Origin: a virus | Direction: 5' to 3' (one strand) | DNA: 35,665 nucleotides | Virus record (IMG/VR): IMGVR_UViG_3300048015_000068 | Span: 1-35,665 of that record | Shown: positions 15,283 through 31,370 of the stretch, piece after piece | How positions within the stretch are numbered: position 1 is the first letter of the stretch | Layout of the letters: every line of letters starts with the position of its first letter | Translations under genes and position numbers: made by a program | The notes under the pieces: model-generated | What the model saw: only the letters and a program-made list of their open reading frames with translations | Told to the model about the DNA's origin: nothing | Databases searched by the model: none

Positions 15283-16191
15283 TCAGACCCCCGCACTGCC
15301 GAAAACGCCCCTGAAATCCGCCCAAAACGCGCTGTAGCGCTCGTAGCACGCGGCTTTGGCGTTTTTCGTATCGAAATCATTATCTTGATCAAAGGTGATC
15401 TTGTCGCGCTCAAAATAGGTCACCGAACGCGGCACATTTGTCCGAATGTAAAATGCGGTCGCCGACGAGAAGTAGTGGTTGACCTTGATGCCCCTCGGAA
15501 AAACGTTGACGGCCTTAAGCACGTTCACCGCGTTGTTGGACGTGTCGTTCTGCAGCACCGAATGAATGATCCGGTTGGCATCGAAAAACAGCGCCGCCGG
15601 CACATGCAGGGACTGCGGCAGCACGGAAATGCGCAGGCCGCGGTTGTTCGTGGTCAGCATGATCTGGATGCAGAGGTCCTCCACGGCCGTTTCCGACAGA
15701 TCGGCAGCGACGGTCAGCACGTTGGACTGGTTGCCTGACACCGTGGGATGCGAGGCGCTGCACAGCGACTGACCATCGGCGCCCGGATACGATGCATTGA
15801 AGGCCTGGTTGTAGATCGACGCCAGCACGTTCTCTTTGGTTTGCCGCATCGAGAACGCCAGCTGCTGCGCACGGCGCTTGCCCACGACCTCGTATAGGTT
15901 GTCGCGTAATTCCTCGAACGTGACGATGTAGCCGAGCGCATAGGCCACGTGCGTAAAGCGAGAGACGGGGCCTTGCACCTCGGTATCGTAGAAAATTTGC
16001 TTGCCCTGCGGCTTGACCGGCGCAAGCCCGAACCCGGTGATTTCCACCTCTTCTTCATACGCCTTGTCGGACGTATCCGTCTCAAACAGATCGGGATATT
16101 CTTCTTGGTGTTCGTCGTAGCTGCGCCCCCACCAGGCTTTGATTCCGGGCCAAAGGGCTTTTGGATGCGAGCCGGTCGTAATCGTTGCCAT
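15283..16191 (-). CDS. Major capsid protein, Mu gpT-like / HK97-fold (302 aa)
   Basis: GGGAG lies 9 nt before the ATG at 16191. The sequence matches the Mu gpT-like major head protein pattern: KALWPGIKAWWGRSYDEHQE and YPDLFETDTSDKAYEEEVEI, then an E-loop-like segment QIFYDTEVQGPVSRFTHVAY. The spine-helix region is FEELRDNLYEVVGKRRAQQL. This is followed by GADGQSLCSASHPTVSGNQS, the A-domain ADLSETAVEDLCIQIMLTTN, and a C-terminal TFDQDNDFDTKNAKAACYER. There is no N-terminal scaffold/delta domain; a separate scaffold gene lies two genes upstream. At 302 aa it is typical for this capsid type. Confidence 0.85.
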   Translation of the reverse strand: MATITTGSHPKALWPGIKAWWGRSYDEHQEEYPDLFETDTSDKAYEEEVEITGFGLAPVKPQGKQIFYDTEVQGPVSRFTHVAYALGYIVTFEELRDNLYEVVGKRRAQQLAFSMRQTKENVLASIYNQAFNASYPGADGQSLCSASHPTVSGNQSNVLTVAADLSETAVEDLCIQIMLTTNNRGLRISVLPQSLHVPAALFFDANRIIHSVLQNDTSNNAVNVLKAVNVFPRGIKVNHYFSSATAFYIRTNVPRSVTYFERDKITFDQDNDFDTKNAKAACYERYSAFWADFRGVFGSAGV

Positions 16192-17579: not shown

Positions 17580-18536
17580 TTAATCGAATTGCGCCCAGTA
17601 ACTGCTGGCCCATTCCGCTTCCGAGAGAGGTTTAGTACCGGCCTTTGCGTCGATCATCCGCTTGTAGCGGTGGAACTGGTCTTTGACCTCTTGTGGCATG
17701 GAAGCGAAGTCACGGCGCGGTCCACTGCCGCGGGCGCCAGGGGCTGGGGCTGCATTGCCCACGGCTGCCGCTGCTGTCCTGCGTGGGTTGGCAGCGCGCG
17801 GTTGGTTGCCCTCTGCCTGCGCGCCTGCCTCCTCTCCTTCCGCAGCAGCCGCAGACCCTGCGCGTTGCCCGCGGAACTTGCTCGGAAACATCGCCCTGAC
17901 ACCGGCCGTGGTGCGCTCCAGGTTTTCCTCGATCGATAGTTCCGGTTCGGCTGCTTGCAGCCGATTGGAAATTTCGGTCGCAGCCTGCGCCATGACAGGA
18001 TCTGTGTTGAACCACGGATTGCGCTGGGCCCACTCGATGACTTCTGGCGCCGGCGCCGCAGCCTGCGTGCTGACCGCAGGCTTGGTTGGCGCCGGCCGGG
18101 GCGCCTCTCTTTCTGCCTCCCGCAGCCGGCGATCGGCATCCTTGAACGCCGCTATATCGCCAGATTCCACGGCCGCATCCCGCTCGCGCTCCAGATCGGC
18201 CCGCGCTCGCTTGTAGGCAATCTCTTCCGTCTTGCGGACGCGCTCGCCCATGTCCTCGAGCAGTGTTACCGCGGTCGCGTTTTCCCGCGTCAGCTTTTCG
18301 ATGTGGCCGTTCATCGAGCGCAGGCGGGTGCGAAGCAGCGGCAGATCGTTTTCCGCCCGGCGGAGATATTCGTCGGCTTCGACGAAATTGCCGGGCGGCC
18401 CGCGGTATTCCTCACGCGGCCGCCAGCCGGTTACGCGGGCGCGAGCCTCAATCTCCTCCGCAGTCTCTCCAGCGCCACCAGCGACGGCCGCAGCACTGGA
18501 ATCGATGCCGTTCGCCACGGCCGCAGCCCCACTCAC
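17580..18536 (-). CDS. Scaffolding-like head assembly protein (318 aa)
   Basis: Residues 34-60 (RVTGWRPREEYRGPPGNFVE, ADEYLRRAENDLPLL) match the 'GW.PKEE..G....W.DA..F..R' start common in phage scaffold-type proteins. A long charged coiled-coil follows at ~70-150 (RSMNGHIEKLTRENATAVTL, AYKRARADLERERDAAVESG). Residues ~160-290 are Ala/Pro-rich and probably disordered, and the C-terminus is a short basic/aromatic helix (KDQFHRYKRMIDAKAGTKPL, SYWAQFD) such as binds capsid. It lies two genes before the major capsid gene. Scaffold function is inferred from architecture and position. The start overlaps the GroES-like gene stop by ATGA. Confidence 0.7.
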   Translation of the reverse strand: MSGAAAVANGIDSSAAAVAGGAGETAEEIEARARVTGWRPREEYRGPPGNFVEADEYLRRAENDLPLLRTRLRSMNGHIEKLTRENATAVTLLEDMGERVRKTEEIAYKRARADLERERDAAVESGDIAAFKDADRRLREAEREAPRPAPTKPAVSTQAAAPAPEVIEWAQRNPWFNTDPVMAQAATEISNRLQAAEPELSIEENLERTTAGVRAMFPSKFRGQRAGSAAAAEGEEAGAQAEGNQPRAANPRRTAAAAVGNAAPAPGARGSGPRRDFASMPQEVKDQFHRYKRMIDAKAGTKPLSEAEWASSYWAQFD

Positions 18537-19117
18537 TGCTGCAACTCCAGCGCCGGCGACATGGCGCCCGAAGGCACTCCGGCATCGTCATCCTGAGCCT
18601 TGCCCGACGCAACGCCAGGCAGGTCCAGCAGCTCGGCGCCATCGCGCGTAAACAGGTAGCTTTGGCCCATGGCCTCGAACAGTTCAGCGGTGCCTTGCGC
18701 CTCTGCCGGCTCATCCTCGCCGATGTCGGCCATACCCATCACGCCGGCGATGCTGCGGTCCTGCAGGACGCGGTAGAGCTTGCCGTCAAGGCCCGCATAT
18801 TCTTGGCCTGAGTAACGCTGGAAGCAAATGCGCGCGCCCACCTCCGGCCGATCGCCCTCCCAGCGCCTGGTGCCGTCCGAGTTCCAGGAAAACGCCATTG
18901 GACCCACGGCCACCATCACGCCCGTTGTGCTGGCCAGCGTCTGCGATTCCTGCAACGAGTCGGTCAGGATCACGCCGCCCTTCGACCGCATCATGGCCGG
19001 ATCGACCATGACAACCACCTTGTCGCAGCACGGCACGATGCCGCTGGCATTCTCGCCCGACCACTTCTGTAGCAGGAATTGCCCGTTGCCGGTGGCCAGC
19101 ACCCGATCTTCGTTCAT
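18533..19117 (-). CDS. Phage-encoded GroES-like co-chaperonin (194 aa)
   Basis: ATG at 19117 overlaps the upstream stop (ATGA); the in-frame extension to 19318 is not needed. Residues ~25-125 match the Cpn10 fold: IVPCCDKVVVMVD (GroES IRPLHDRVIV), RSKGGVILTDSLQESQTLAS with the mobile-loop hydrophobic triplet VIL (residues 49-51), and TGVMVAVGPMAFSW for GEVLAVG. EVGARICFQRYSGQEYAGLD and YRVLQDRSIAGVMG complete the barrel. A ~24-residue N-terminal and a ~70-residue acidic C-terminal extension are not part of GroES. It most likely replaces host GroES on GroEL to fold the capsid protein, as T4 gp31 does, and it lies directly upstream of scaffold and capsid genes. The assignment is by motif only. 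Confidence 0.75.
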   Translation of the reverse strand: MNEDRVLATGNGQFLLQKWSGENASGIVPCCDKVVVMVDPAMMRSKGGVILTDSLQESQTLASTTGVMVAVGPMAFSWNSDGTRRWEGDRPEVGARICFQRYSGQEYAGLDGKLYRVLQDRSIAGVMGMADIGEDEPAEAQGTAELFEAMGQSYLFTRDGAELLDLPGVASGKAQDDDAGVPSGAMSPALELQQ

Positions 19118-19485
19118 TCCTGATTCCCCGTGATTAGAAGTTTGCTCCACACGCACCCGAGCCGAATACTGACCGACCCGCGCCACATCACGTCGCCAAG
19201 CATTTCCGCTTGGTTCAGACCCACAAAATCCCGCGCCTCGAACCGTGGCGCCTGCCCCCAGAACAGCCGAGAGCCGTTTCCCGCTTTGCGCGCATAGTGC
19301 TGCGCCCAAAACAGCCACTGCTCGACCGCTTCGCCTTCATCAGCAAACAACGCCGGCAGCGGGTCATCCGCGCGCATTTGGCCGCCGCTGGTGACAATGA
19401 CAAATTTGGCGCCATCAGGCGCGCCGCTTCCATCGAGAACCCGTTTGTCCCGCTCAAACTCCTCTACTGCATCGCATAGCCTCAT
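19114..19485 (-). CDS. Unknown phage head-operon protein (123 aa)
   Basis: ATG at 19485 overlaps the upstream stop by ATGA, and the stop overlaps the GroES-like start by ATGA. The sequence is a mixed alpha/beta protein: MRLCDAVEEFERDKRVLDGS, KFVIVTSGGQMRADDPLPAL, and EGEAVEQWLFWAQHYARKAG. No catalytic or metal motif is seen and I do not recognise the family. Tight coupling suggests a role in head assembly or virion composition. Confidence 0.6.
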   Translation of the reverse strand: MRLCDAVEEFERDKRVLDGSGAPDGAKFVIVTSGGQMRADDPLPALFADEGEAVEQWLFWAQHYARKAGNGSRLFWGQAPRFEARDFVGLNQAEMLGDVMWRGSVSIRLGCVWSKLLITGNQE

Positions 19486-19808
19486 TCGGCCTGCTCCTCA
19501 ACGCCGCCTAGCAGCTCGGCATAAAAAGCCCGGATATGCTCAAGCGTCACGCCGGCCGCTTCTTTGGCCATCAGCGCCCGCCCCCGAGCTTCCTGCTCGA
19601 AGGCAAGATCCTTGGAACCGGCCAGCCACCCAGCCGTGGCACGTTCCACCACGCTGTCCCCGAACTCATTGAGCCACACCAGGAACAGGCGGCTGACCGG
19701 GTGGTGGCGCCACAACCCCCACTGCTCCGGGCTGAGCTGGCGCAGCACCTCCAGGTCCTGCAAGGAGCGCCGGGTTGGTTTCTGGCCCTCCGCCTGTGTC
19801 TCCTGCAT
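19482..19808 (-). CDS. Small helical protein overlapping the portal 3' end (108 aa)
   Basis: ATG at 19808 has GGAGG 6 nt upstream, one of the best ribosome-binding sites in the window. The longer frame from 19952 adds an Arg-rich shadow of the portal gene. The product is helical: RRSLQDLEVLRQLSPEQWGL, WRHHPVSRLFLVWLNEFGDS, then a charged C-terminus EHIRAFYAELLGG. No family is recognised. The first 143 nt of the gene lie within the portal's Pro/Gly-rich C-terminal coding sequence, a much longer overlap than any other in the operon. The stop overlaps the next start by ATGA. Confidence 0.6.
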   Translation of the reverse strand: MQETQAEGQKPTRRSLQDLEVLRQLSPEQWGLWRHHPVSRLFLVWLNEFGDSVVERATAGWLAGSKDLAFEQEARGRALMAKEAAGVTLEHIRAFYAELLGGVEEQAE

Positions 19809-21822
19809 TGAGCGCCTCCACCTTGGCCTGCATCGCGCGCAGCTGCGCGTCATACCAGGCGATATTGACCTCAGAATCGGCCTTTTTGGCCTGCGCCAGC
19901 TGGTTGATCGCCTGCGCAAGCGCCAGGATTTCCGCGGCCTTGTCCTTGCCACGGCGCATAGCCAGATCGGCCTCTTCGTGCACGGCTCGCATGCGCGCCT
20001 CGTAATCGCGGCGGTCCTGCTCCTGCTTGCGCAATTCCAGGGTCGCCGCCCCCGTCACAATCTCAGGATTAGGCGATGGCTGCTTTTTCAGCAGTTTGTC
20101 GATGTCCGTGAACATCGAGGCGCTCAACATCTGCTGGCGGATAAGATGCCCGTCGAAATAAGGATCGTCTTTGAACTGCATCAAAAACTGCGCCATGCCC
20201 AGGCGCTGCATGTCTGTGACCATCTGCGGGTCGGAAACGGGTATGACACCCAATCCGCGCGCGTAGTCGGCGGCTGAGATTTCCCGCCATTCAGATCCCG
20301 ATCGAAAGCCGGATTGCTGCGGCAGGTAGCGCCGGTTCAGGCGCGCCAGCTTCTTGAACTCCCACTTCAGCGAGCGGTGCACGCGCTTGTAAATCGCGGA
20401 GAATACCTTCAGGCCCTGCTCGATCAGGGCGAGCGTGGCCACGCCAGATGTGTTGTCGCCGGGCAAGTCGCCGACCATCACGTCTTTGACCGAGGCGATT
20501 TCCTTGCCGGCCTCTACCAGAAACTGCACCAGCGCAAACAGCACTTGCGACGGGCCCGGAAACGGAATTGGCACGATCGAATCCTTGATTGTGCCCCCGG
20601 TGGCGTTCACCGGCTTGTACTCGCCGGGGGCGAACCGCATCGACCCGGCGTACACAGACAGAGAGGCCGCATAAAACCCGCCGCCGGTGTTGGCCAAATG
20701 CCCCGCGTCGAACAACTGGTTAAGCGAAGTATTGATCGCCTCATTGATAGGGTAGAGCAAATTGCCGAAGCCCAGGCCGTAAATCCCACTCTCAGGGTTG
20801 GGAATGAAGCAATACGGTGTGTAATATTCGACCGCATCGATTTTGATGATCTCGCCCGACTGGTCGCTTTCTATTGTCTCGTCATCATAAGCCGCCCGGA
20901 TGCGGGCCAGCTTCATGCTGTCTTTTGCGACGGTCACAATATACGGCTCGGCGTATCCGTCGCCGTCCAGGTCGATGCGCCGGTGCTGCTCGAGAAAGGT
21001 GATCGCGGCCGATGTATCTTCGTGCGATTCCTGATCGTGGCCGTAATTCTCGTCACGGAAAATCGCAAGCCGGATGTTAGTTTCCACCTCATGCGGGTAA
21101 AGCATCAGGATTTCCGTCTTACGCGCGTCCTCGAAGCGGGGGGCGTGATAGTTCACGACCAGGTTGCGCGCATCGACCAGGTCCGAAAGGTTGCGCTGCA
21201 GGCGCGGCGAGAAATAGGACTTGCGGAACATCGCGCCCACGATCGACAGGATCAGCAGCAGGCGATCGGTGTCGGGTTCCCATTCCGGCATTTCCTCCAG
21301 CAGCTGCCAGGACATGTGCTCGCCGATGCGATCGGCCACCGATTGCTTGGTGCCGGGCGGCTCGACCCACACCGGCTTGCCATCGGCGCCCGCGACAGGC
21401 TGTCCCGTCTGAGGATCCTTAAGCGGCACGCCATCGTCGCGCCCATCCACCGTGCCCTTGACCACATCCTTGCTGCGGATGATGGCCGGGTAGGCGCGGG
21501 CGTGGAACTGGATGGCGGCCGAGGTGATGAGTGGATAGACGACGTTGCTGGCCTTAGGCCACGGATAGGTCTTTTCCTGGGCAATCTGCTGCGCCAGGTT
21601 CAGCCACTTCTCATATTTCTCTAACCAATCGCTGCGGCTCTGCTCGTCTATCCGGTAATCCTGCAACACGCGATTGACGATGGAGCCGATCTCGCCGTCC
21701 TCCAGCTCGCCGGCGAGGTTGTCCATATCGGCCCAGCGCAGCAGCAGATCGAGCACGCTTTCCTTGGCCCCGGGCGCGGGCAATGCGGTTTCGTTCATTT
21801 CGGCGAAAAGCCCGTCGGCCAT
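19666..21822 (-). CDS. Portal protein, P22-type (718 aa)
   Basis: The protein has typical podoviral portal features: YEKWLNLAQQIAQEKTYPWP and KASNVVYPLITSAAIQFHAR near the N-terminus (clip/wing start), and VNYHAPRFEDARKTEILML. A crown/stem region reads NQLFDAGHLANTGGGFYAAS, then VPIPFPGPSQVLFALVQFLV, then ASVKDVMVGDLPGDNTSGVA, ending ALIEQGLKVFSAIYKRVHRS. The C-terminal ~90 residues form a charged coiled coil (QEQDRRDYEARMRAVHEEAD), then a Pro/Gly/Ala tail. It forms the dodecameric channel for DNA entry and exit and binds the terminase. Length is close to P22 gp1 (725 aa). ATG at 21822 overlaps the upstream stop (TGATG). Confidence 0.85.
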   Translation of the reverse strand: MADGLFAEMNETALPAPGAKESVLDLLLRWADMDNLAGELEDGEIGSIVNRVLQDYRIDEQSRSDWLEKYEKWLNLAQQIAQEKTYPWPKASNVVYPLITSAAIQFHARAYPAIIRSKDVVKGTVDGRDDGVPLKDPQTGQPVAGADGKPVWVEPPGTKQSVADRIGEHMSWQLLEEMPEWEPDTDRLLLILSIVGAMFRKSYFSPRLQRNLSDLVDARNLVVNYHAPRFEDARKTEILMLYPHEVETNIRLAIFRDENYGHDQESHEDTSAAITFLEQHRRIDLDGDGYAEPYIVTVAKDSMKLARIRAAYDDETIESDQSGEIIKIDAVEYYTPYCFIPNPESGIYGLGFGNLLYPINEAINTSLNQLFDAGHLANTGGGFYAASLSVYAGSMRFAPGEYKPVNATGGTIKDSIVPIPFPGPSQVLFALVQFLVEAGKEIASVKDVMVGDLPGDNTSGVATLALIEQGLKVFSAIYKRVHRSLKWEFKKLARLNRRYLPQQSGFRSGSEWREISAADYARGLGVIPVSDPQMVTDMQRLGMAQFLMQFKDDPYFDGHLIRQQMLSASMFTDIDKLLKKQPSPNPEIVTGAATLELRKQEQDRRDYEARMRAVHEEADLAMRRGKDKAAEILALAQAINQLAQAKKADSEVNIAWYDAQLRAMQAKVEALNAGDTGGGPETNPALLAGPGGAAPAQPGAVGVVAPPPGQPPVPGVAQ

Positions 21823-22082
21823 CAGGATGGCGCCCCAGGGAAGGCGAAGGTCAGAAAATCGCGCAGAAGACGGGCCTGCAAGGGGCTAAGCTCGATTTCG
21901 ACCGCATCGACTCGCACGGCGCCGCCCAGGTGCACCACCAGCGCCGTCTTGTCGGGGTGATCCGGGCTTACCCGGTGGCTGAATTGCGCGCTTTCGCAAG
22001 CACCCGGCACGCGGGCACTGAGCACGTTCTCGAACGATATCGAGACAACCAGCCCGTCGAAGATGGCTTGCCGGCTTACCAC
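21822..22082 (-). CDS. Small unknown protein before the portal (86 aa)
   Basis: The start is GTG at 22082, inside the last codons of the HslV-like gene, with AAGGTG a few bases upstream. The product is beta-rich in the middle (DKTALVVHLGGAVRVDAVEI) and helical at the end (SPLQARLLRDFLTFAF). I do not recognise the family. It is coupled at both ends, and the segment carries no competing frame, which supports it as real. Confidence 0.55.
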   Translation of the reverse strand: MVSRQAIFDGLVVSISFENVLSARVPGACESAQFSHRVSPDHPDKTALVVHLGGAVRVDAVEIELSPLQARLLRDFLTFAFPGAPS

Positions 22083-22513
22083 ACGCGCACCTTGGTCACC
22101 GGAGCGCGCGCGGAATCGGTATGCGCGATAGCCAAATCCACCGCCGCAGCGGCGCTGGCGCCCGCGGCCATCGCGCCCAAAAGAAAGCTGTGCACGCAGC
22201 CGATCGCATAAAACGGCGCCTCGGCCTGGTAGAAATTGCCTTCGCCAAACATGAATAGGCGGCCGTCGCGATAAGCGATCATGGCCGCAAACCCGCCCTG
22301 CGGCACCGCGGGCATTTCGTCCAGGTTGTACATCAACAAATCACAGGCTCGAAGCTTAGTAATGAACAGACTTGAATATCCGGCATCACCCGAAACCCCG
22401 ACCACCGCTCGACCCAAATCGTGGATTTTGGTTACGCGCCCCGCCAGCATGTAGTCGCGGAAAAGCGCGCTATCGGCCGCCATTATGCCATCCTTGAAGG
22501 CCACGGCAGTCAT
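22076..22513 (-). CDS. HslV/proteasome-like N-terminal nucleophile hydrolase (145 aa)
   Basis: ATG at 22513 overlaps the upstream stop by ATGA; the frame upstream of it is a shadow. The N-terminus is MTAVAFKDGIMAADSALFRD. After Met removal it would expose Thr2 as nucleophile, with Asp14 and Lys29 (in GRVTKIH) in the Asp17/Lys33 positions of HslV and proteasome beta subunits. Then follow VVGVSGDAGYSSLF (family G.GD.AD), RDGRLFMFGEGNFYQAEAPF and YAIGCVHSFLLGAMAAGASA; the last matches the AIGSG...A.GA...GASA...A helix of these Ntn hydrolases. It is shorter than HslV (about 175 aa). Between terminase and portal it could act as a maturation protease, but the substrate is unknown. No HslU-like ATPase is seen nearby. 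Confidence 0.7.
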   Translation of the reverse strand: MTAVAFKDGIMAADSALFRDYMLAGRVTKIHDLGRAVVGVSGDAGYSSLFITKLRACDLLMYNLDEMPAVPQGGFAAMIAYRDGRLFMFGEGNFYQAEAPFYAIGCVHSFLLGAMAAGASAAAAVDLAIAHTDSARAPVTKVRVW

Positions 22514-22800
22514 GCCGACGTCTTTGCCCGAAACTCGCCACACCACCAATCGTCCTCGATCAGCGGAAAACAGGCGATGATCTGCGGCGCAAAAGCGGGG
22601 CCTTGCGGCGCCACGGCCACCACGGGCCGCGCCGCCGGCACCATAATGATGGTGGCCTGCGGGCTGCGCGCCCGGCACTCCACCTGCTTATCTTTACCCT
22701 TGTTGCGGTAGCGGCAATCCCTGCAATGGCCAAGGCCTGCGCGTTCACCGACCGTTTCTGACGCTTGGCGCACGGGCAAAATCAAATTGTTCATCGACAT
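22510..22800 (-). CDS. Cys-motif (zinc-binding?) phage protein (96 aa)
   Basis: The sequence has CRDC at residues 26-29, a third Cys at ~42 (VECRARSP) and a final WWCGEF near the C-terminus. This CxxC...C.R..P...WCGEF arrangement recurs in small phage and bacterial proteins and probably binds zinc. Between them lies a beta-rich IIMVPAARPVVAVAPQGPAF. The gene begins at ATG 22800, directly after the terminase stop (TGAATG), or at a second ATG two codons later. It ends by ATGA on the HslV-like gene. The function is unknown. Confidence 0.6.
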   Translation of the reverse strand: MSMNNLILPVRQASETVGERAGLGHCRDCRYRNKGKDKQVECRARSPQATIIMVPAARPVVAVAPQGPAFAPQIIACFPLIEDDWWCGEFRAKTSA

Positions 22801-24306
22801 TCAGTACCCCGTAACGCCGCTGCGCGACATGTCATCGAAACCCGCATACTGGTTGTGGCCGGCCAGTCCAGCGCCCTCCGGCTCCCGCAAAGCGCGTCCA
22901 AACAGCCATGCCCCTTGATACGTAAACGCATCCGCGACGTGTGAGAATTCGTTTTTATTGGGCTTATTCTCATATTTCTCGCCGGAAACGTGTACGCGCC
23001 GATAATGGTAGCCGCCCAAAAGCGCTTTTCGCAGGCGCTTGCAACGAGGATGCAGCCCGAACTGAGCTCGGCCTCCGCGAACCAGGCCTCGTAACGCCCG
23101 TCTGGTGCCCTCTAACCGAATACGTAGTGTCTGCGGCGCTGGTTTAATCAGAATTCCTTTGGCTGCAGCGATTTCAAAGCATGTGCGTGCATCTGTCTGC
23201 TGACGCTCGCCGCCAGCGGGATCACCTATGTCCTCGAACTCGCACCCGCGCATATTTCGATCAGAGTAACGAAGCACATAATCCGAGAATTCGTCGAACC
23301 CCATGCCATCGGCACATAATTCATCCGTGACAATCCACCGCCCGTCCAGCGTTTCCTGCCCAAACACACAGGATGGAGTTAGCCCAAAGTCGTATGACCG
23401 CAAGATCGGCAGTTCGGGGTTCAGCCGGGGCCACTTTTTGGGATCATCCGGGCAATGCTGTTCCTCTGAATATTCGGGGAAAACAGCCATGCCATCAACG
23501 GAAAATCCATAATCTCCATGGATGTAGACCTTTACCCAGTCCTTCGATTTGCCCACGGCCAGGCGCTCGTAATAGGCGGGCGGCAGGTTGCGGATGTTTT
23601 CGGCCGCCCTCGATGTGCCCGAAGGCTGCTTGAAAATGGCCGAGAACGTGTCTTTGGTGAACAGCTTGGCCTTGGGATCACGCGCGAGCAGCGCCCGGTT
23701 TAGCGTCTCGATGTCCTCGCGGTGATCTTCCTCCTCGAAAAACTTATACCACTTCGATTCCGTATCCGGCGGGTTGGTATCCCCCCAGACCCCGGACCAG
23801 GTGCAGCCGCCATCTTTCATCGACGGATACCGGCCGACGCGGCCCATCACCGCCTCCCAGATCGACCAAGGGATGTCGCGGCCCTCGTTGAGCCAAGCGC
23901 CGGTGTATTCGGTCGACAGCAGGTTGCCGAGCTGGTCAGGGCGATCGAGCGCGCGGAAGCATACTTCTATGTCGGCCGTGGGCTCGTTGTCGGCCGCGCG
24001 AAAGGCTTTCAGAATGTAGTTGTGCGATGTCGCGCGCCAATCGCCGCAAACGTAAGGCGGAAACCATTGCAGGAACGTGCGCTCGGTGCTGTCCTCCAAC
24101 TGCCTGAAGCTGTTGCGGATCACCACGAAACGTGTGTGGCGTATGCCGTCCCACCCGGGCGCCTGGCGCAGGCCGCGGTAAGGCAATTCCCAGCAGCACC
24201 CCGAGCTTTTGCCCGACCCGAAAGGCCCCATCAGGCCACGGATGAAGGCGTCGGATTGGGAAAAGCGAAGGACGGTGGGAACGTCTTTGTAGGAATAGGG
24301 GACCAT
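22801..24306 (-). CDS. terL: Terminase large subunit (501 aa)
   Basis: Residues 27-34 are GPFGSGKS, the Walker A P-loop of the packaging ATPase. TEYTGAWLNEGRDI at ~132-145 is the Walker B/catalytic glutamate region, and WGDTNPP (~174-180) is the coupling motif. The C-terminal RNase H-like nuclease starts at LRSYDFGLTPS (~302-312, metal-binding Asp). It continues with EDIGDPAGGERQQTD, and its last acidic motif is FSHVADAFTYQG near the C-terminus. The enzyme cuts concatemeric DNA and pumps it through the portal. The small subunit lies about 2.5 kb upstream rather than adjacent. Starts at ATG 24306, a few bases after the preceding gene. Confidence 0.9.
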   Translation of the reverse strand: MVPYSYKDVPTVLRFSQSDAFIRGLMGPFGSGKSSGCCWELPYRGLRQAPGWDGIRHTRFVVIRNSFRQLEDSTERTFLQWFPPYVCGDWRATSHNYILKAFRAADNEPTADIEVCFRALDRPDQLGNLLSTEYTGAWLNEGRDIPWSIWEAVMGRVGRYPSMKDGGCTWSGVWGDTNPPDTESKWYKFFEEEDHREDIETLNRALLARDPKAKLFTKDTFSAIFKQPSGTSRAAENIRNLPPAYYERLAVGKSKDWVKVYIHGDYGFSVDGMAVFPEYSEEQHCPDDPKKWPRLNPELPILRSYDFGLTPSCVFGQETLDGRWIVTDELCADGMGFDEFSDYVLRYSDRNMRGCEFEDIGDPAGGERQQTDARTCFEIAAAKGILIKPAPQTLRIRLEGTRRALRGLVRGGRAQFGLHPRCKRLRKALLGGYHYRRVHVSGEKYENKPNKNEFSHVADAFTYQGAWLFGRALREPEGAGLAGHNQYAGFDDMSRSGVTGY

Positions 24307-26722: not shown

Positions 26723-26838
26723 AGCCCGATCCAGATGATACCTCCGCACGCCAGGAATCCGCCAACAAACCCCGCCACCAACGCCCACGACGCGTAGCCG
26801 CTGACCATGCTGCGGCAGGCTGCGCCGACGCTATCCAC
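26611..26838 (-). CDS. Small membrane protein after small terminase (about 75 aa)
   Basis: GTG at 26838 overlaps the small terminase stop; ATG at 26808 is an alternative start. ASWALVAGFVGGFLACGGII plus WIGLCGLAARR is a clear membrane helix with a positive end. The last ~30 residues (SSVLRPATSGLFSAIGC...) look like a shadow of the overlapping membrane gene, so the real product may end or shift frame there. Holin-like size and topology; function unproven. Confidence 0.4.
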   Translation of the reverse strand: MDSVGAACRSMVSGYASWALVAGFVGGFLACGGIIWIGLCGLAARRSSVLRPATSGLFSAIGCCCAPSQSFCRSL

Positions 26839-27367
26839 TGGACGTGCTTCCGCTCGCCTCGCCGTCGATCACCGGCGCCGTGCGATCGACCATCAGCAGC
26901 GTGATGGGCTTCACGCCCACCTGCTCGACCTTGTCAATGAACAAGCCGCGAATGCGCCCGAGCTGGGTGAGCGCATCGCCCTTGTTGTGCACCCGGATTT
27001 TGATGATCGACGGCCGTCCCCGTTTGGCCTGGCTGATCTCGATCGAGGCCACCGCCCGTTGCTGATCTTCGGTCCACTCCTTGATGGGCTTCATCCGGCC
27101 CGATGGCTCGAAGATGTCGGCCACATTAAAAAGGGCGATCCTGGCAAATTCCCTAATGATTTCAGTGGCCGAAATATCAGCCAAATCTGCAAGCTGTTGT
27201 TGTTTGGCTGAAATCGCCGCCTTGATACTGGCATACCTGAGCAACTTCACAGCGGTTGAAGTGGCACTTCGCTTGTTATAGCCCGCCCGGATGGCCGCCT
27301 GGGTGCCATTGCCGTCGACCAAATACTCGAGCACGAAACGCCGCTGGCGGTCATTCATGACTGCCAT
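26831..27367 (-). CDS. terS: Terminase small subunit (178 aa)
   Basis: The N-terminus, NDRQRRFVLEYLVDGNGTQA, then AIRAGYNKRSATSTAVKLLR, is the DNA-binding helix-turn-helix of terminase small subunits (xxxRQxxFVxEYLxDxNxTQAAIRAGY). The middle (EIIREFARIALFNVADIFEP) and VASIEISQAKRGRPSIIKIR follow the usual pattern of that family. The C-terminus is short and disordered (DGEASGSTSSG). It recognises phage DNA and loads the large subunit. It is separated from terL by about ten small genes, which is unusual. ATG at 27367 is used; ATG at 27358 is an alternative. Confidence 0.85.
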   Translation of the reverse strand: MAVMNDRQRRFVLEYLVDGNGTQAAIRAGYNKRSATSTAVKLLRYASIKAAISAKQQQLADLADISATEIIREFARIALFNVADIFEPSGRMKPIKEWTEDQQRAVASIEISQAKRGRPSIIKIRVHNKGDALTQLGRIRGLFIDKVEQVGVKPITLLMVDRTAPVIDGEASGSTSSG

Positions 27368-29539: not shown

Positions 29540-29931
29540 GACACAGCCACCAGCCGCAGAACATCTTGCTCGGACCTCAATTCGGCCGCTCGACCGCCGG
29601 CCTCAATCACATTGCGGGCAAAATTGGCCTGCAGGTCACTTAGCTTGTCCCGTCCGACCTTGGCGTCGCCGGCGGTAAACACCGCGATCTTTTGGCCCAC
29701 CATGTCGGGCGTGATCGTGATCGTGACCCAGCCGATCAGATCCAGGCTGCCAGGTGCCAAGCCGGTTTCCTTGCGCACCGGATTTACCAGAGTGACCCAT
29801 CCAGGCCCCTGTTCTTTGACCGTTCCCTGCCAGAACAGTCCGCGCACGTTCTGGAACAGGCGGCAATGCAGCGCCTGCTCGCCGAGCTTGAGGCGTATCC
29901 GGCGCATGAGGTCCTGATGGGGCGTGCTCAT
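29536..29931 (-). CDS. VRR-NUC-type nuclease (131 aa)
   Basis: ATG at 29931 overlaps the helicase stop by ATGA; the long frame above it is a shadow of the helicase gene. The order LHCRLFQNVRGLFWQGTVKE, GLAPGSLDLIGWVTITITPD and MVGQKIAVFTAGDAKVGRDK, then LSDLQANFARNVIEAGGRAA, is that of phage VRR-NUC domains: (G)xxDL(I)G, a strand, ExK, and the QxxF helix with AGG. Asp64 and Asp89/Lys91 (AGDAK) would be the metal and catalytic residues. The usual ExK is DxK here. Such nucleases cut branched DNA and often sit beside an SF2 helicase, as here. Confidence 0.75.
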   Translation of the reverse strand: MSTPHQDLMRRIRLKLGEQALHCRLFQNVRGLFWQGTVKEQGPGWVTLVNPVRKETGLAPGSLDLIGWVTITITPDMVGQKIAVFTAGDAKVGRDKLSDLQANFARNVIEAGGRAAELRSEQDVLRLVAVS

Positions 29932-31370
29932 GCCGTCATCGCCTCCGGCAGTGCCTCGCGGCGGTTTCGCGCGTCGATCCTGGATTTGACAAAGGGCCAG
30001 ACGCGATGCACCCAGAACGGGGAGTAACCCCGTTCTTTGGCCATCGCCTGCACGTCGTCGTACGACCAGCACGCGTTCAGTGCCTGCTTGAACGGCACCG
30101 CATGCTTGACCTTGGGCTTCTCGGCCTTGGCTTGAGCCTTGACGCCGGACACCTCGACCAGCTGTCCGCGCACCATCTTGGGCACCGTGCGGGCAGGCGC
30201 GGGCGCTGCCACGTATTCGTGCCCGCAGGCAGGGCACAGGCGCGCAGGTTGATGGCAGCAGTAGCACACGGGGCACTGCTTGACGGCGGCCGCCTGGGCG
30301 CGTGCAGGCGCGCCGGAGAGGTCCCATTTGCGGGGCGCGTCCGGCATGCCGTGGCCGCGATGGATATTGCCCACGTGATCCAGGATGATGGTGCGCGAGC
30401 CGTCCGCTTTCGGCCGCAGGGCGCGCCCGATCTGCTGGAGGTAAAGCACGAGCGACAGGGTTGGCCGGGCCAGGATCGCGCCTTGAACCGCCGGGATATC
30501 GGTGCCCTCGCTCACCACATCGCACGAACACAGCACGTTCAAGCGCCCGTCGCCGATCGAGGCGATCAATCGCTCGCGCTCGTAGTCGCGCGTCTTGCCG
30601 TCCACTGCGGCCGCTTGCCAGCCGGCCTCGCGGAAGGCGGCCGCCATATTATGCGCGTGCTCGACTGTGGCGCAGAAGGCCAGCGCCGGTTTGCCGTTCA
30701 GCTTATCTTTGTAGTGCTCGATGATATCGCCGTGCACGCGTCGCGTATCCATGGCCTTGGCCGAATCCGCGGCGGAATAGTCGCCGGCCGTCTTGCGCAG
30801 GCCTGCCAGGTTCGCCTGCACCGGCGGCGCATAATACGTGTAGCGCGACAGGAAGCCGCGGTCCTGCAGCTCGCGCATGGTGGGCCCTTTCACCAGCACA
30901 TCGAAGGCGTCGCCGAGGCCTCTGCCGTCCAGGCGTGAAGGCGTGGCTGTGACGCCCAGCACATAGGCGTCCGGCCAGGCCTGCATGATTTTCATATAGC
31001 TGCCCGACACCGCGTGATGGGCTTCATCCGGAATAAACAGGTTTGGCTGCCGCAGCCTGCCAAGCCGATTGCCGATCGTCTGGATCATTCCGACCTGCAC
31101 GGGCGCCGACGACTCTGGATAATCCGGCGCTATGAAACCGTGGCGCACCCGTTCGCGCGTGAGCGCCTTGCCGATCTGGCGCACGATCTCGATGCGGTGA
31201 GCGGCCAGTGTGACCGTAAGCCCGCGTCCGGCCACTTCCTGCGCGATATGGCTGAAACACACGGTTTTGCCAAAACCCGTTGGCGCTACGCCAAGAACAC
31301 GGCGGTGCGAGCGCATGGCAACGCGGATGTCCTCGACAAACTTCGTTTGCGTATCGCGCAGAACAACCAC
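29928..31370 (-). CDS. SF2 DEAD/DEAH-box helicase with C-terminal zinc ribbon (480 aa)
   Basis: Motifs in order: Q/I at RVLGVAPTGFGKT (Walker A, ~25-36), LAAHRIEIVRQI (Ia), FIPDEAHHA (II, DEAH), VLGVTATPSR (III), LAFCATVEHAHNMAAAFREA (IV), CSCDVVSEGTDIPAVQGAIL (V) and LYLQQIGRALRPK (VI). This is the organisation of T5/YejH/RadD-like SF2 helicases. A zinc ribbon follows: CPVCYCCHQPARLCPACGHE. The C-terminal ~70 residues form a helical tail (PFKQALNACWSYDDVQAMAK). It probably unwinds branched DNA in phage replication or recombination, together with the VRR-NUC protein encoded next. The start is GTG at 31370, 10 nt after the preceding gene. Confidence 0.85.
   Translation of the reverse strand: MVVLRDTQTKFVEDIRVAMRSHRRVLGVAPTGFGKTVCFSHIAQEVAGRGLTVTLAAHRIEIVRQIGKALTRERVRHGFIAPDYPESSAPVQVGMIQTIGNRLGRLRQPNLFIPDEAHHAVSGSYMKIMQAWPDAYVLGVTATPSRLDGRGLGDAFDVLVKGPTMRELQDRGFLSRYTYYAPPVQANLAGLRKTAGDYSAADSAKAMDTRRVHGDIIEHYKDKLNGKPALAFCATVEHAHNMAAAFREAGWQAAAVDGKTRDYERERLIASIGDGRLNVLCSCDVVSEGTDIPAVQGAILARPTLSLVLYLQQIGRALRPKADGSRTIILDHVGNIHRGHGMPDAPRKWDLSGAPARAQAAAVKQCPVCYCCHQPARLCPACGHEYVAAPAPARTVPKMVRGQLVEVSGVKAQAKAEKPKVKHAVPFKQALNACWSYDDVQAMAKERGYSPFWVHRVWPFVKSRIDARNRREALPEAMTA

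Follow-up and report, generated by a model that had tools for sequence, protein, structure and literature searches.

The proteasome homologue PPH was described in 2021 by Fuchs, Alva and Lupas as a family of proteins, about 140 residues long, found in Caudovirales and in the hosts of these phages, with no helix H2, no propeptide and no C-terminal extension (PMC8665760). Within the proteasome-like family it has been presented as the first true viral branch. The proteasome homologues described in that study, PPH among them, are reported there to have neither a genomic context that indicates their function nor an AAA+ partner that co-occurs with them (PMC8665760), and our literature search found no paper on PPH function. 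Relatives are present in more than 300 GenBank phage records, many of them annotated as HslV-family peptidases. Given these records and the earlier description, a phage protein with a proteasome fold is no novelty, and the suggestion in the first-pass annotation that the protein discussed here represents an unusual use of that fold was anticipated by the 2021 family. Other systems that invite comparison are the protease HslV (ClpQ), the beta-proteobacterial proteasome homologue BPH, and the prohead proteases of the S78, ClpP-like and S77 types, whose folds and catalytic residues are unrelated to those of PPH, although PPH may share with them a location in the head gene cluster.

The PPH gene and its product

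The window, a stretch of viral DNA of 35,665 nucleotides that was analysed whole (IMG/VR record IMGVR_UViG_3300048015_000068), encodes a 145-residue protein on the minus strand (22076..22513; ATG at 22513, stop ending at 22076) with the N-terminus MTAVAFKDGIMAADS. This protein is a member of the known but uncharacterised phage family PPH: it has the length of the family, a Thr directly after the initiator Met, the Asp/Lys/Gly set of catalytic residues, and, from sequence and model, a single helix at the H1/H2 location. Its gene lies between those for the terminase large subunit (TerL; 22801..24306, minus strand; phrog_2, E=1.5e-26) and an SU10/P22-type portal protein (19666..21822, minus strand; phrog_1216, E=3e-17), with one small open reading frame (ORF) on each side, and the coordinates, residue numbers and gene order given for it in the first-pass annotation are all correct. 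These terminase and portal flanks are one of the features that set it apart from PPH as described. The 86-residue ORF on the portal side (21822..22082, minus strand), identified by position, overlaps the end of the PPH gene and gave no match in family searches. On the terminase side, a 96-residue Cys-rich ORF (22510..22800, minus strand) carries the pattern CxxC...C...WCGEF, a possible zinc ribbon, and its stop codon overlaps the PPH start (ATGA), which suggests coupled translation; PPH would then probably be made together with its upstream neighbour. Homologues of the Cys-rich ORF directly follow TerL in many relatives, whether or not these carry PPH. A conserved upstream partner of PPH was considered and rejected, as upstream genes differ among phages and the Cys-rich neighbour occurs without PPH.

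The protein matches the PHROG profile "peptidase HslV family" (phrog_1040, E=2.1e-25) over residues 1-141. A search of the PDB with a profile of 57 family members retrieved Thermotoga maritima HslV (1m4y, E=2e-11), BPH (5ovs, 2e-10) and proteasome beta-5 (3e-10). No proteasome match was obtained when the window protein alone was compared with Pfam and NCBIfam; since 27 of the 57 relatives match the Pfam Proteasome family (PF00227), this reflects a limit of sensitivity, and the predicted membership of the protein in PPH is carried by family-level sequence evidence. When the single protein was used directly as a query, viral and genome collections yielded no close relatives and a plasmid collection yielded none; an alignment of 15 members proved too heterogeneous to be turned into a pattern. 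Matches to beta-lactamase inhibitors in the PDB search were rejected as chance matches to repeats.

An AlphaFold model of the protein (mean pLDDT 92.3, pTM 0.87) is predicted to have the proteasome fold, with one helix (residues 44-56) after the first sheet, followed by helices at 108-116 and 121-131. Structural alignment with VIA-align placed it closest to HslV of Staphylococcus aureus (6kr1, Z 17.9) and Escherichia coli (4g4e, Z 17.8), with 141-142 residues aligned at an rmsd of 2.2 and residue 2 superposed on Thr1 of the E. coli enzyme; BPH followed at Z 16.2 and proteasome beta subunits at Z of about 16. Foldseek likewise matched HslV, BPH and proteasome beta subunits (best E 3e-8). The identification of an HslV/proteasome-like Ntn hydrolase, first made from the sequence alone, is thus borne out by profile, family and model, with no fold mismatch. 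The window protein shares the fold and the Thr1/Asp/Lys catalytic layout of HslV but is about 30 residues shorter and about 15% identical. BPH, which is 21% identical and also has no dedicated unfoldase, is about 40 residues longer, and the window protein has no room for its long pore loop.

The residues singled out in the initial reading (Thr2, Asp14, Lys29 and the segment AIG..HS.L.GA..AGASA at residues 103-121) are all present, together with Gly42. Thr2, Asp14, Lys29 and Gly42 are the equivalents of proteasome Thr/Ser1, Asp17, Lys33 and Gly47, the catalytic residues of that enzyme (PMC8665760). In all 140 PPH loci collected the nucleophile is encoded immediately 3' of the start codon (137 Thr, 3 Ser), and in the 82 non-redundant members (less than 70% identity) Thr/Ser2, Asp14, Lys29 and Gly105 are invariant, with Gly42 in 78. 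Host methionine aminopeptidases remove Met1 ahead of small second residues; given this rule and the invariant Thr/Ser after the start codon, the host enzyme would be expected to free Thr2, which could then act with Lys29 and Asp14 as an N-terminal nucleophile peptidase. Unlike most of the family, the window protein reads GCV at the GSG motif: position 106 is Cys where 71 of 82 members have Ser, and position 107 is Val where 77 of 82 have Gly. The TGG motif near the C-terminus is also absent, and these two departures could mean that activity is altered. The GSG serine is likewise missing from the nearest relatives, on contigs L226 (GCH), L213 (GGA) and L093 (GVQ).

Neither an S78 nor a ClpP-like protease was found in the window, in agreement with the earlier remark that no classical prohead protease is visible, and a Pfam scan of 42 other ORFs of the window returned no peptidase family. 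That no unfoldase is apparent was also confirmed: the only P-loop ORFs of at least 150 codons encode TerL, an AAA_25 RepA-like ATPase and a RadD-like helicase, and no HslU- or ClpX-like gene was found among these or in the Pfam scan of this possibly incomplete record. Host HslU could serve the window PPH. The helicase (29928-31370, minus strand) is RadD/YejH-like by an NCBIfam match (E=1e-25) below the cut-off of that model. By analogy with HslV and BPH the PPH protein would probably form a ring-like oligomer and, having no unfoldase of its own, may be limited in its substrates to peptides, proteins that are already unfolded, or a small number of specific partners.

Patchy presence among viruses with the same head module

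The head module of this virus is common to dozens of IMG/VR contigs and comprises genes for TerL, portal, a 156-residue protein, a GroES-like protein, a scaffold-like protein, proteins of 220 and 202 residues, and the major capsid protein (MCP), whose identity across these contigs is mostly 60-87%. The MCP of the window (15283..16191, minus strand; 302 residues), recognised from family matches and relatives, is a stand-alone protein: its matches to "protease/major capsid fusion" families (phrog_4523, NF045541) fall in their C-terminal part, and it has no protease part. A PDB sequence search found no solved relative of it. The GroES-like co-chaperonin domain protein (Cpn10; 18533..19123, minus strand; E of about 1e-8) is encoded beside the gene for a coiled-coil protein, putatively a scaffold from its position and composition (17580..18536, minus strand), which is conserved in the module, and the two are kept together in dozens of relatives. 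The terminase small subunit is encoded at 26831..27367 (minus strand).

PPH is missing from the whole record in 43 of 46 relatives that share this head module, including 27 of 28 records longer than 44 kb; some records may be fragments, so that a single absence is weak and the pattern over 43 weighs more. Two of the three relatives that have the gene are the same virus, and the third carries, at a different location, a gene of another PPH branch. PPH occupies the location seen in the window in just one virus lineage (contigs L048, L049 and L093), and in L093 the order TerL, Cys-rich ORF, PPH, portal is identical. In L044 the gene lies upstream of TerL, beside a terminase small subunit gene. 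The PPH tree places the window protein with those of L226, L213, L093 and L239 in a supported group of five and L044 elsewhere, which is consistent with independent gains. No S78 or ClpP-like protease was found in any of the 47 head-module records, the window included; together with the 43 records that have no PPH, this suggests that capsids of this type mature with none of the three. The closest MCP relatives (83-87% identical) have no PPH, and MCP N-termini are alike in carriers and non-carriers.

The gap between TerL and portal ranges from -7 to 6007 bp across relatives and is sometimes occupied by HNH endonucleases; in L128, which has the same head module, a different protease is annotated there (phrog_11227, E=5.5e-33; L128:5002-5433). 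In phages with related terminases (Mx8, BcepC6B, Ss1 and VA-RY-3) TerL and portal are adjacent or nearly so, and no annotated protease was found between them.

PPH surroundings in other phages

The phages that carry PPH are unrelated to one another, and include jumbo phages, T4-like phages, Jersey phages and podoviruses. The gene lies beside holin genes in SETP7, amid small unknown genes in CcrBL9, RHph_Y65 and BDU-MI-1, close to DNA metabolism or lysozyme genes in NCVTCBPA170 and ESCO5, and upstream of the terminase in Medea1; in known phages it is often near lysis or early genes and away from head genes. Two PPH genes, at 229407 and 48754, are present in Caulobacter phage CcrBL9 (NC_048047.1, the record of L001).

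The distance to TerL was examined in 32 PPH records that had not been selected for TerL but in which it could be detected. Six PPH genes lie within 1 kb of it, against 1.2 expected (P about 8e-4); within 6 kb there are 15, against 6.7 expected, and 17 are more than 6 kb away. TerL and portal are among the commonest PHROG matches in a tally of the two genes on each side of PPH. S78 and ClpP-like proteases were found in none of 50 PPH records (L044, L168, L177 and L181 among them) and in 11 of 50 control contigs (four S78 and seven ClpP over the cut-off, all in different records; Fisher p=5e-4), although lineage bias could cause this difference, since the controls, large contigs drawn by arbitrary DNA words, are matched to the PPH set neither by taxonomy nor by completeness, and records of related viruses do not count as independent. 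Rhizobium phage RHph_Y65, which is T4-like, encodes PPH together with an S77 prohead protease.

Role of the window PPH

In our judgement it is likely that the window PPH is an accessory, threonine-type Ntn peptidase occupying a slot between TerL and portal that varies among relatives, and that it is not needed for building this capsid type. Because the gene is missing from most viruses whose capsids are nearly the same, PPH is probably an accessory protease rather than a capsid-maturing enzyme. The first-pass annotation had suggested the opposite, that PPH could be the prohead maturation protease; such an enzyme would be packaged or recruited during assembly, cut scaffold, portal or capsid, and replace S78, ClpP or S77. 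The gene order of the window and L093, the family-wide enrichment near TerL and the shortage of S78 and ClpP-like proteases in PPH records relative to random large contigs all fit that proposal. Against it stand the rarity of PPH in head-module relatives that also have no S78 or ClpP, the similar MCP N-termini with or without PPH and the PPH-free relatives with 83-87% identical MCPs, the co-occurrence with S77 in RHph_Y65, the lack of an annotated protease between TerL and portal in phages with related terminases, and a family of which more than half the genes measured lie far from TerL; we regard it as very unlikely. Two patterns, the modest excess of PPH genes near TerL and the lack of S78/ClpP in PPH records, leave room for a head-related role. 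Both would be explained if, in some phages, PPH were a late, head-associated proteasome-type protease that substitutes for a canonical prohead protease; we give this, too, little credence.

A narrower form of the accessory reading, to which we assign about an even chance, is that PPH is a host-takeover or stress protease for host or unfolded proteins, its proximity to TerL reflecting late expression or chance. It would suit a gene that is widespread in unrelated phages beside small unknown, holin/endolysin or early genes and has no fixed partner, as well as the reported lack of a telling genomic context for proteasome homologues (PMC8665760), but does not by itself explain the enrichment near TerL. 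Loss of the GSG serine in the window, L226, L213 and L093 would be expected if PPH of this subclade were catalytically weakened or inactive and kept a binding or structural role. We consider this unlikely, as Thr2, Asp14, Lys29 and Gly42 are all retained and the equivalent serine of the proteasome is auxiliary and not the nucleophile.

Viruses that share their capsid genes but differ in whether they carry PPH amount to a natural experiment, and it argues against capsid maturation as the main job of PPH. Proximity to TerL and the absence of S78 and ClpP-like proteases, two patterns that extend across the family, become testable questions on PPH.
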